A stretch of 64,000 bases of DNA from Rhodoferax sp. TH121 (GTDB taxonomy: Bacteria > Pseudomonadota > Gammaproteobacteria > Burkholderiales > Burkholderiaceae_C): NCBI RefSeq assembly GCF_002251855.1, contig NZ_NOXW01000020.1, forward strand, positions 1 through 64,000. The letters are read 5' to 3'. The translations under genes and the position numbers were made by a program. Positions 29,297 to 33,682 of this stretch are shown here, in pieces. The number at the start of each line of letters is the position of its first letter. Positions within the stretch are counted from its first letter, which is position 1. A model generated the notes under the pieces. That model saw only the letters and a program-made list of their open reading frames with translations. It had not been told where the DNA came from and made no database searches.

Positions 29297-29347
29297 TGGC
29301 AGAGGATAACGCGATGTACGATGTTGCAAAACTCAGGGAGAAAAGCC

Positions 29348-30097
29348 ATGGCCATAAACGCAAATCAGAAACTTGCGGTTCTGATCGACGCCGACAATGA
29401 CACGTCAAAAATAGTCACAGAGCTATTTGAGGAAGTCTCTCGATATGGAACTGCGACCATAAAGCGCGCCTATGGAAATTGGACTACGCCCCAGCTAGGA
29501 GGCTGGAAGGATGTCTTGCACACGCAAGCCATACAACCTATTCAACAGTTCAGTTACACCACCGGAAAAAACGCTACTGATTCCGCTTTGATCATCGACG
29601 CCATGGATGTACTTCATACAGGTCGTGTCGATGGCTTTTGTTTGGTGTCGTCCGACAGCGACTTCACCAGACTTGCCACACGAATTCGAGAGGCCGGCCT
29701 TATCGTTTATGGCTTCGGAAAGCGTTCAACTCCAGCCGCCTTTCAAGCAGCTTGTGACAAGTTCATCTATACAGAAATCTTGCGCACTGAACCAGAGGAA
29801 TCCAAAACTGACCAGGAACCAGTGGCTGAGTGGCCCAAACTCAAACCGATATTGCTCAACGCGTTGAACGCAACTGCCCGCGAAGACGGTTGGACCACGC
29901 TGGCTGTCTTGGGCGGGCAGATTAACCGCAGCCACCCATCGTTTGATCCGCGCAACTACGGCGTAGCGAAGCTGGGTGAGTTGATTCGCCAGCAAGCGGC
30001 ATATCTGGAAGTGAAAGAAGTGAGGTCGGGTGAGGGCGACTCCGTACAGACGCACTTACACGTCCGGCGGAAGACGACTACACAGCAAAAAACCTAG
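29348..30097 (+). CDS. NYN-domain ribonuclease-like protein with OST-HTH/LOTUS domain
   Basis: 249 residues from the ATG at 29348 preceded by AGGGAG. The NYN/PIN-like domain (about 1-145) has AVLIDADN (about 10-17), a central DSALIIDAMDVLH (about 77-89) and CLVSSDSDFTRLATRIRE (about 97-114), giving the cluster of acidic residues expected for a metal-dependent RNase. Residues about 170-245 (DGWTTLAVLGGQINRSHPSF, YGVAKLGELIRQQ) fit the OST-HTH/LOTUS RNA-binding fold. It is AT-richer than core neighbours and its stop overlaps that of the convergent DUF262 gene by four bases. Its partner in RNA metabolism is unknown. Confidence 0.85.
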   Translation: MAINANQKLAVLIDADNDTSKIVTELFEEVSRYGTATIKRAYGNWTTPQLGGWKDVLHTQAIQPIQQFSYTTGKNATDSALIIDAMDVLHTGRVDGFCLVSSDSDFTRLATRIREAGLIVYGFGKRSTPAAFQAACDKFIYTEILRTEPEESKTDQEPVAEWPKLKPILLNALNATAREDGWTTLAVLGGQINRSHPSFDPRNYGVAKLGELIRQQAAYLEVKEVRSGEGDSVQTHLHVRRKTTTQQKT

Positions 30098-31170
30098 GTA
30101 CTTGGTTGACCTTGGATGTCGGCGATGAGGGCTTGAATTGCGCCATGTCGTAATACTCGCTCGCGTTTGTTATTCACAGCCTCTTTAGCAGCAAGAGAGT
30201 AGTCTTGTGGAACCTGTTTCTCAAACAACTCAAGCGCTGCCTTCAATTTCTTCGCATCAACTTCCGCAACTTTTCGTGATTCAAATACGGCGACAAAGAG
30301 CGAGAAAGCGTTCGCTTTGTTCATCCAGTATGAATTTTCCTTCAGCTTTAGTTTCAACAAGTACTTCGCAGTCTCCTCAAGATTTTTTAAAACCACATTT
30401 TTGTCGGGAAACTCTTGAGAATATTGATTCAGGTATTCCTCAGAAAGTTCATTTCGATTGAAGAAGCCAGACATTGTTGAGCTCATCAAGTTGAGGGTGA
30501 ACATTAGATGAACTTTACGTGATAGCTCATAGTCGGTGAATAGGCCCGTGGTCGTGAGCCATTTTTGAAATGAGCTAACTTTTTGATTTGCGGCCCATTC
30601 GTAGATTGCTGGCGGAACATTCGGATCCCTCATCATGGGTTCCAGCTCTTCATCACTCAGTGATAGCTGATTAGCAAGAAGTTTTGCGACCAACATGTAC
30701 TCCGAAGGAGAGTATTCAGTCGCAAGTCTCTCGATCTTTGACAATGAATAGAAGGTTCGGTTCAGTCGCTTGAATAGTTCTTTTATTTGTGGATCGCTCT
30801 CAATCAGATCGAGATCAATTATTGGTACTTGGTACTTAAGAAAGTCTTCTTTTGCCGAAGACTCGAGTTCACTGAAGCGTTTTCCATCGACGGGAAAAAC
30901 ATCGCCCACATACTCGATGATGCTGTTCAATCGCTGCTGACCATCAACAACGCATGAAGTGGCTGTCATACTTTCTACGTCGATTTTCCCGCGCGAAATG
31001 AATATCTGTGGGAACGGATATCCGCTCAGAATCGTTTTTATGAAATCAACCTTATGTAGCTCCCGCCAAACCAGATCGCGTTGAAAGTAAGGAGAAATAA
31101 TAAGACGGCGATTTCGGTATTCGTTTACCAGGTCTAAGAGTTCTTTTGAGCGAATTTGATACTTAATCAT
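30094..31170 (-). CDS. DUF262 domain protein
   Basis: 358 residues. The N-terminal about 200 residues are DUF262 (ParB/Srx-like NTPase fold): ISPYFQRDLVWRELHKVDFI (about 25-44) carries the QR..W signature, GYPFPQIFISR follows, and CVVDGQQRLNSIIEY (about 73-87) is the DGQQR motif. The rest is helical with no HNH (DUF1524) domain, so it differs from GmrSD and SspE, which have one. Strongly AT-richer than flanking genes, with different codon use, indicating transfer. It starts 8 bases after the nucleotidyltransferase-like gene, so the two form one unit. A role in phage defence or as a toxin-antitoxin pair is inference. Confidence 0.85.
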   Translation of the reverse strand: MIKYQIRSKELLDLVNEYRNRRLIISPYFQRDLVWRELHKVDFIKTILSGYPFPQIFISRGKIDVESMTATSCVVDGQQRLNSIIEYVGDVFPVDGKRFSELESSAKEDFLKYQVPIIDLDLIESDPQIKELFKRLNRTFYSLSKIERLATEYSPSEYMLVAKLLANQLSLSDEELEPMMRDPNVPPAIYEWAANQKVSSFQKWLTTTGLFTDYELSRKVHLMFTLNLMSSTMSGFFNRNELSEEYLNQYSQEFPDKNVVLKNLEETAKYLLKLKLKENSYWMNKANAFSLFVAVFESRKVAEVDAKKLKAALELFEKQVPQDYSLAAKEAVNNKRERVLRHGAIQALIADIQGQPST

Positions 31171-31178
31171 TGGAATCC

Positions 31179-31760
31179 TTATTTGACCAATCTAACTGTT
31201 TCCGCCTGCTTACGCTCAAAGCTTTGAAGCGTCGAGTACACAGACCCACTGATTGAGGTGAACTTGCCAACATATTGCTTAGTTAGCGAACTAAATAGGT
31301 CGCTAATTTTTCTCTTTTCTTCACAACTTGGTAGGGTGAAAGTGTGAATGAACCCGCGACAGTAGTTGTTCTTATACAAACTGGGAACGTCGTCGATACC
31401 AGTGAGTTTTGGAAAGCTGGTCAAGTCTTGGAAGTCCTTGGTCTTCGTTTGTGCAACTAAGCCAAGATAGATAAATAAATTCTTATCAACGACTGCTATG
31501 TCGAGATCTGATCTGGCTGCATCGAATGGCTTTCCAGCGTGGATACTTTCTCCAATTTGTGCAGAACCACAAATTAAGACACTCGTTATCGCTACATTCA
31601 ATTCGTCTGCGATACGGCGTTTAATTTCAAACTCGATGTCGTATCCATGCAGCTTTTCAAACGCTCTAGCTGGATAAGTTTCATACACACGAGACACGAT
31701 CTTTTCTGGCGACTCACCTTGCTTTAGGTGGTGCCTAATTGAATGAGTCCAAGTGTGCAT
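31179..31760 (-). CDS. Nucleotidyltransferase-fold protein
   Basis: 193 residues. VAITSVLICGSAQIGESIH (about 55-73) then ARSDLDIAVVDKN (about 82-94) gives the GS...DxD metal-binding motif of polymerase-beta-like nucleotidyltransferases, with an 18-residue loop between GS and the first Asp. The C-terminal half is helical; no second recognised domain. AT-rich like its partner. It begins 9 bases after the glnS stop on the same strand and may be read from the glnS promoter, or from a weak one inside the glnS end. Pairing with DUF262 suggests a regulator or modifier of that protein. Confidence 0.8.
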   Translation of the reverse strand: MHTWTHSIRHHLKQGESPEKIVSRVYETYPARAFEKLHGYDIEFEIKRRIADELNVAITSVLICGSAQIGESIHAGKPFDAARSDLDIAVVDKNLFIYLGLVAQTKTKDFQDLTSFPKLTGIDDVPSLYKNNYCRGFIHTFTLPSCEEKRKISDLFSSLTKQYVGKFTSISGSVYSTLQSFERKQAETVRLVK

Positions 31761-31769
31761 ATGGCTGGA

Positions 31770-33590
<1,821 letters not shown>

Positions 33591-33682
33591 GCGTTGGATT
33601 TTAGACGGCGCTTTGCTTTGTGCAGGGCCGCCCGTACACTGGGGCACAGCAGTTTCCACACTATTTGAACCAGCAGCTGTTT

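Follow-up and report, generated by a model that had tools for sequence, protein, structure and literature searches.

The DUF262 NTPase domain is a component of the defence nucleases GmrSD, BrxU and SspE, and DUF262 without DUF1524 occurs also in Menshen, Dazbog and PD-T4-2, as part of PMC10952713 states. In the HEPN/MNT (HepT-MntA) system, a small nucleotidyltransferase (NTase), MntA, polyadenylylates HepT via a GSX10DXD motif, according to an excerpt of PMC7641770. Here, we analysed a gene pair encoding a putative NTase and a DUF262 protein in a 64,000-nucleotide (nt) stretch of Rhodoferax sp. TH121 (NZ_NOXW01000020.1, positions 1 to 64,000; hereafter called the “window”), which lies within an 846-kb contig of the 3.99-Mb genome. 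In the sampled branch, the two genes form a single evolutionary unit, which has spread between phyla and reached phages; defence-type sites hold some copies of the pair. The pair is probably a mobile phage-defence system; a defence role is favoured by the placement on mobile elements and in a P2 hotspot, together with the neighbouring C5-cytosine methyltransferases (C5-MTases). Judged by its sequence, the first protein belongs to an unnamed, putative NTase family and is the new element of the system. If this holds, an NTase-coupled branch, present in many phyla, would be added to the DUF262 defence superfamily, and the pair would join two nucleotide-using proteins without a visible nuclease.

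How does the pair compare with the described systems? Nsn (NsnABC), which we take to be Menshen, is the closest in its DUF262 component: among the PADLOC models, NsnA scores best for each of the five NTase-paired DUF262 proteins scanned (window, L004, L040, L041 and L045; 2.6e-15 to 1.9e-40; L and G numbers denote our loci and genomes), and the window match, at 2.6e-15, spans residues 2-352. However, neither an NsnB ATPase nor an OLD-type nuclease adjoins the window DUF262 gene, whose neighbours are the NTase gene and a NYN gene. PD-T4-2 likewise has a DUF262 protein without DUF1524, and its PD-T4-2_A model matches at 1.9e-12, over residues 13-90 only; whereas its partner is a HEPN protein (both points from part of PMC10952713), the partner here is the upstream-encoded NTase, without a HEPN match. 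GmrSD, BrxU and SspE share the NTPase domain with the QR, DGQQR and FxxxN motifs (the last so named in part of PMC12137116), and our DUF262 family profile matches the BrxU structure 7p9k (7.2e-5) and a DUF262 structure, 9jfl (5.9e-4); in contrast to them, the pair has no DUF1524/HNH domain and encodes the NTase as a separate gene. HEPN/MNT resembles the pair in its small NTase, its tightly coupled two-gene organization and a weak fold likeness, while the partner here is DUF262 (PF03235) instead of HEPN, the motif is GSx18DxD instead of GSX10DXD, and the NTase has no MNT profile match. The CD-NTases of CBASS may share the Pol-beta fold with the window NTase (CdnD row, Z 4.3, in the structural alignment below), and the relative L002 has a weak PADLOC Cyclase match (0.0054), whereas the window NTase is much smaller and the window proteins have no CBASS match in PADLOC.

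No NTase-DUF262 system model was matched in PADLOC-DB 2023 by the window proteins and the relatives scanned, and no description of the pair was found among the papers listed by the literature searches, with the supplements and the 2025 Menshen paper (PMC12065111) outside its scope. A near DNA match to the pair of Escherichia coli strain 1500 is present in 1/5426 E. coli genomes, and querying with the Cronobacter pair in distant mode gave this one genome only. This rarity could explain why screens in E. coli would miss the pair.

The NTase family was reached by alignment searches only. As a single query, the window NTase gave one match in plasmids and nothing in genome contigs, phages or viral contigs; the sister NTase likewise gave nothing in viral contigs. 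The NTase profile was built from L002 (an Aliarcobacter plasmid), G199 and G281, and the relatives added to it came from Cronobacter and Pseudoalteromonas plasmids, from a member of the same class (L043) and from E. coli 1500. The search with the four-row alignment A6 gave 10 viral-contig loci and, with the best 80 of 133 genome relatives, a set of 90 loci, three of which repeat earlier ones with identical sequences (L129 = L004, L121 = L043, L128 = L140). A weak NTase match, L005 (E 7.8e-4), was dropped; by eye, it lies within a polyprenyl-synthase-like gene. Another weak match was L044 (E 6.8e-4). According to their record titles, the genome relatives belong to Pseudomonadota, Cyanobacteriota, Bacteroidota, Planctomycetota, Bacillota, Actinomycetota and Chloroflexota, among others.

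In 86 of the 90 loci, a same-strand DUF262 open reading frame (ORF) starts between -80 and +300 nt from the NTase end. The four exceptions are a fusion (L068), a remnant in which a cut-short NTase is followed by an apparent DUF262 C-terminus (L080), and two overlapping long ORF calls (L122 and L124); counting the fusion and the remnant, DUF262 stands beside the NTase in 90/90 loci. Since the search used NTase patterns only, this is a fair adjacency test for this branch. With refined starts, the gap is -30 to +10 nt in 83/84 cases, the exception being L077, where the DUF262 gene is split in two frames. Five of the 90 copies look broken (L048, L077, L080, L093 and L094, with a split NTase in L048 and short NTases in L093 and L094); sequencing errors are a possible cause.

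The two proteins also diverged in concert. Across 91 pairs, including two duplicates, the NTase and DUF262 distances correlate with a Mantel r of 0.92 (maximum 0.115 in 2000 permutations); the pair is inherited as a unit. A quick tree of 123 DUF262 proteins places all 91 NTase-paired rows on one side of a branch, with 88 of them on a branch of support 100 and L041, L054 and L055 apart; the window and L142 proteins are sisters, with support 100, and L053, L131 and L134 share a seven-row group with the window pair (SH-aLRT 94). In the reverse direction, a DUF262 profile (A10) matched 29/299 phylum genomes at 1e-20, and among 30 DUF262 loci, the NTase accompanies the three that score above 250 bits (window, G715 and G827) and is missing from the 27 below 175 bits. 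By eye, an AAA/SMC-type ATPase adjoins DUF262 in 14 of these 27 low-scoring loci, as expected for Menshen. Moreover, a cyanobacterial metagenome-assembled genome carries a natural in-frame NTase-DUF262 fusion of 542 amino acids (L068:4042-5670). In a Foldseek search, the fusion model retrieved BrxU first (E 1.4e-4), then ParB/Noc, and SspE at 0.08. The fusion may be decaying, since its GS is changed to RS and its DGQQR to DGQTR.

Some copies lie on mobile elements. The pair was found on plasmids and phage-like contigs, and its occurrence is sporadic (3/398 phylum genomes, including the window's own). It is GC-poorer than its flanks in 69/70 GTDB loci with enough flank, by a mean of 13 points (Wilcoxon p 4e-13). 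The sister pair in G715, adjoining lepA (by eye), has 47-50% GC in a 64% GC stretch, with no integrase visible in the 12 kb inspected. In E. coli 1500 (L045), the pair lies between the replication endonuclease and portal genes of a P2-like prophage, in the P2 gpA-gpQ region, which part of PMC9122126 describes as an anti-phage hotspot. L055 has both P2 flanks, where the identity to the E. coli 1500 proteins is 78% for the portal and 36% for the replication protein; the L054 pair lies beside a P2-like portal that is 98% identical, and the replication-protein match also appears in L054 and L052. Because the L054 and L055 pairs come from a distant branch, the P2 site took the system more than once. 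By eye, L047, L048 (gene in pieces) and L049 have an integrase-like gene upstream, while the L135 locus is prophage-like. The E. coli NTase had no match in phage records.

The immediate neighbours were scanned as 149 of 151 ORFs, leaving out the giants of L100 and L098 (L098:2082-6752); the L100 giant, scanned separately, contains WD40 repeats. Five of the 149 are C5-MTases (Pfam and PADLOC) and four are Uma2 proteins. At 1e-10, 151 PADLOC families matched the 149 neighbours and 54 matched 117 distal ORFs, a weak measure that counts redundant models. In a search with one MTase, a C5-MTase adjoins the pair in 6/90 loci. It lies just upstream on the same strand in an operon-like arrangement in L053, L131 and L134, where the DUF262 proteins have 502-506 residues, and downstream on the other strand in L098, L099 and L133. 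The C-terminal extension of these longer DUF262 proteins has no Pfam match. In L053, an HNH protein (6.8e-10) with a sub-threshold SAD_SRA match follows.

In the window, the pair follows glnS, and the 3′ side of this gene (window 29297-31770; loci L016-L035) varies among the genus members in a 4-kb search of 41 genomes. Judging by the BLAST match ends, the gene beyond the window insert starts 14, 35 and 143 nt from glnS in G317, G318 and G301, respectively. The same far-side gene is about 0.5, 0.7, 2.4 and 4.1 kb from glnS in G320, G306, G305 and G300, and about 4.3, 7.2, 7.2 and 23.6 kb from it in G308, G311, G313 and G314; further insert sites are present in G321 (a partial match, about 0.5 kb) and on a second G311 contig (about 2.4 kb). 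We scanned ten cargo proteins from four of these loci with PADLOC. The cargo of G308, a genome whose glnS match is 94% identical, includes a dCTPase (2e-131), PDC-S14 (3.5e-109) and a weak pAgo-type match. In G314, a HEC-01A ATPase (1.2e-130) adjoins glnS and three more proteins have no match; a PDC-S09 protein (1.2e-27) is encoded on the second G311 contig, and two G300 proteins have a weak match (9.6e-7) or none. The remaining inserts seem, by eye, unrelated to defence. The cargo at the glnS 3′ side is therefore variable, and defence-type genes make up only a part of it. A search with the DUF262 protein found the pair in 0/36 other genus genomes, with a full match in the window's own genome only among the 61 genomes searched, and this absence indicates a foreign origin.

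Two observations accompany this search. In G314, a 112-base duplicate of the 3′ end of glnS (G314:C40:79646-79757, in L018), 89% identical to the window, precedes the full gene by about 2 kb; the HEC-01A ATPase thus lies between two glnS-end copies, which hints at the route of cargo entry. The weaker DUF262 matches, in G313 (two places) and G318 (one), are distant genes with other partners: HEPN and FRG-domain genes in G313 (L037:1429-3227 and L039:718-2546; Pfam) and, by eye, a DNA methyltransferase-like neighbour in G318. DUF262 thus seems to be a shared component whose partners can be exchanged.

The GC content of the window pair is 0.430 (43.0%), as compared to 0.617 (61.7%) for the window, and no 1667-base segment is as low (624 segments, step 100). 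The NTase gene starts 9 nt past the glnS stop, the DUF262 gene starts 8 nt past the NTase stop, and both ORFs are intact. The first-pass annotation had described two AT-rich genes of foreign composition with these spacings after glnS, and the ORF positions and base composition agree with it. It had also named the DUF262 motifs QR..W and DGQQR, the lack of an HNH domain, and a GS...DLD signature with an 18-residue loop in the NTase, all of which we recovered as detailed below. An AAGGA motif overlapping the NTase stop suggests translational coupling. The region 29900-32300 yielded no sigma-70-like promoter, versus 2.2 expected; with the AAGGA motif, this makes the co-transcription of the pair with glnS plausible. 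No convincing flanking repeats were detected around the pair.

Next, we examined the NTase protein. The residues G65, S66, G70, D85 and D87 are invariant in 84/84 other rows, an invariance that the scan patterns (GS[GA]KLGF and SDID) partly enforce; L002, L003 and L041, which were found by BLAST or the genome search instead of the patterns, retain GS and DxD. The window NTase has no naming match in Pfam, PADLOC, NCBIfam or PHROGs, and four of six relatives (L043, L002, L045 and L004) have sub-threshold Pfam NTP_transf_2 or Polbeta matches (E 0.0084-0.091). The AlphaFold2 model, built with 84 relatives in the alignment, has a predicted local distance difference test score (pLDDT) of 92.8 and a predicted template-modelling score (pTM) of 0.88. 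A Foldseek search with it gave nothing at E <= 0.001. The VIA-align structural re-alignment against 432 chains placed 7bxo first, a toxin-antitoxin entry with AMP-PNP (Z 5.0, root-mean-square deviation 3.2, 85 aligned), which is presumably HepT/MntA. Two ribosomal rows and the HEPN-MNT complex 8xeh (row 4) follow, all with Z 4.6, and then AadA and CdnD (Z 4.3), with further Pol-beta enzymes among unrelated rows; the CdnD, CdnG and cGAS rows have Z 3.0-4.3, values that may reflect a common arrangement only. Together, the GS...DxD motif and these rows point to a nucleotidyltransferase fold in the model, with a weak Pol-beta likeness and without singling out a subfamily. In a PDB profile search with the NTase family, the putative nucleotidyltransferase 1ylq appeared at 0.12; the sole row below 0.001, a designed TIM barrel (3.8e-4), was taken as chance.

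The DUF262 protein matches PF03235 with E 5.5e-19, and its core is complete (QR, W35, DGQQR, F133, R135, N137, R338 and R341). Pfam gave no DUF1524 or HNH row for either pair protein at E up to 10. The protein differs at other near-invariant positions (E55, N150, G156, M219 and D221), and the sister L142 also has the odd residues of the window (Q55, I118, A150, S156, K219 and S231). We considered the window copy as a decayed one and favoured a divergent subclade instead, as both ORFs are intact and the odd DUF262 residues are common to L142.

On these grounds, we propose a mechanism by analogy with GmrSD, BrxU and SspE. A mobile, AT-rich two-gene immunity cassette would have been inserted at the glnS 3′ side; the defence-type genes at this site in sister genomes count in favour of such a cassette. 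The DUF262 protein would be an NTP-switched sensor of phage DNA or DNA modification. Upon infection, it would release or activate the NTase, the enzymatic output, which would transfer nucleotides to an RNA or protein target and thereby block phage multiplication. We place the NTase at the output because the partner is the effector in other DUF262 systems (HNH, HEPN or nuclease). That the pair stops phages and that one protein controls the other is what we infer; a defence function is likely, and the particular division into DUF262 sensor and NTase output has, in our estimate, slightly less than an even prospect of being right.

Several points weigh against this picture. The branch uniting all of the NTase-paired DUF262 proteins has a support of only 35. 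In the reverse search, the A10 profile itself contains the window and G827 (= L128) sequences, so that G715 is the sole independent positive. The model of the L068 fusion (pLDDT 88.6, pTM 0.57) gives no confident domain arrangement or interface. The neighbours are mostly ordinary and diverse, with 156 Pfam families among the 149 and none in more than five. The NTase of HEPN/MNT is an antitoxin, not an effector (part of PMC7641770), and the MNT rows in the structural list are tied with unrelated ribosomal rows at Z 4.6. In addition, the window NTase departs from its family at K68, F71, R139-P140-D141, W152 and Y184, each conserved in >90% of 93 sequences, and the loss of these conserved residues makes its activity uncertain. 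Its function may be weakened, as L142 keeps the RPD that the window lost; RPD is also lost or changed in L041, L053, L054, L055 and L002. Finally, the NTase of a divergent branch (L002, L003 and L175) adjoins a small peptidoglycan transglycosylase in 3/3 loci, with no DUF262. The first-pass annotation had made its proposal depend on the two genes being neighbours elsewhere, and had suggested a search for other defence genes nearby. The proposal survived this test, as the adjacency stood throughout the 90 loci, though not in those three; C5-MTases adjoin six of the 90 pairs and some pairs lie in the P2 hotspot, while most immediate neighbours were ordinary.

Could the NTase be the regulator instead? 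The pair could be a toxin-antitoxin system, in which the NTase nucleotidylates a toxic DUF262 NTPase or nickase and holds it off until infection, as MntA AMPylates HepT. The gene order, with the NTase first and tightly coupled to DUF262, the two toxin-antitoxin-type entries at rows 1 and 4 of the structural list, the polyadenylylation precedent of MntA via GSX10DXD (part of PMC7641770) and the invariant Tyr113 of DUF262, a possible acceptor, are all consistent with it. However, a Z near 5 may mean a common arrangement only, given the ribosomal ties, and the window loop has 18 residues, not 10. An hhalign comparison with one MNT covers 24 columns with a probability of 1.4, DUF262 shows only its NTPase fold and no visible toxin domain, and the fusion model predicts no NTase-DUF262 interface; we regard this alternative as rather unlikely. 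The transglycosylase loci allow a broader reading that we consider doubtful: the NTase would found a family of regulators acting on unrelated enzymes through nucleotidylation or a nucleotide signal, gating the ParB-fold DUF262 NTPase here and the transglycosylase in L002, L003 and L175. If true, phage defence would gain a new control principle, in which an NTP-dependent immune sensor is switched by nucleotide transfer.

The pair could also act in a restriction-like manner, with DUF262 recognizing modified or unmodified DNA, the NTase acting on ends or nicks, and the C5-MTase protecting the host in some lineages. The operon-like C5-MTases beside the long DUF262 proteins, the HNH protein with the SAD_SRA match in L053, the grouping of the window pair with L053, L131 and L134, and a PADLOC Type II restriction endonuclease model that matches all five DUF262 proteins scanned would fit this scheme. 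It is nonetheless improbable: the one-query search found no adjacent C5-MTase in 84/90 loci, no nuclease fold was detected, and no MTase is among the scanned window neighbours. A selfish or regulatory mobile pair, such as a stability or addiction module, would explain the strict two-gene unit, its sporadic occurrence, and its presence on plasmids and phage-like contigs without any anti-phage role. The tested members of the DUF262 superfamily, however, are defence proteins (as stated in part of PMC10952713), the P2 hotspot placement speaks for defence, and the broken-looking copies, unless they are sequencing errors, mean that the pair can be lost; a selfish or regulatory nature alone is accordingly hard to credit. 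The preferred reading of a mobile defence system is the one under which we list the features (Table 1).

Table 1. Coordinates of the gene pair, its motifs and associated features (window positions unless a locus is given)
Feature	Position	Strand	Basis or remark
NTase gene, first of the pair	31179-31760	-	ORF, 193 residues, ATG start
NTase motif G65-S66-x18-D85-x-D87	31500-31568	-	alignment
AAGGA, ribosome-binding-like motif overlapping the NTase stop	31176-31180	-	sequence
DUF262 gene (GmrSD_N, ParB/Srx-type NTPase), second of the pair	30094-31170	-	ORF, 358 residues, ATG start; PF03235
QR motif (Q30 R31)	31078-31083	-	invariant in 83/83 other rows
DGQQR motif (D76-R80)	30931-30945	-	D, G, second Q and R in 83/83; first Q in 82/83
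FxxxN motif (F133-N137)	30760-30774	-	F133 and N137 invariant in 83/83
glnS, flanking housekeeping gene outside the system	31770-33659	-	recognized by eye, no family search
NYN + OST-HTH gene, convergent	29345-30097	+	PF01936 2.2e-38, PF12872 1.7e-12
C5-MTase + NTase + long DUF262 sets	L131:363-4732, L134:4740-9062, L053:5339-9946		possible modification-linked subtype
NTase + transglycosylase units	L002:3226-4480; L003:753-1800; L175:3418-4660		PF00912 6.7e-36 in L002; others by eye

On its far side, the DUF262 stop overlaps the end of the convergent NYN/OST-HTH gene by 4 nt, an overlap that the first-pass annotation does not mention. The GC content of the NYN/OST-HTH gene is 0.52, and it matches PHROG 37744 (4e-63). 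We rejected it as a third part of the system, because related DNA is present in genus genomes without the pair; it is probably outside the system. By eye, an NYN-like gene also lies 4 kb from the pair in L121, probably by chance.

The transglycosylase branch occurs on the Aliarcobacter plasmid (L002), on a chromosome (L003, in G199) and on a viral contig with P2-like tail-type genes (L175). In G199, the NTase is cut short beside a transposase-like ORF. The NTase and the transglycosylase possibly form a second two-gene unit.

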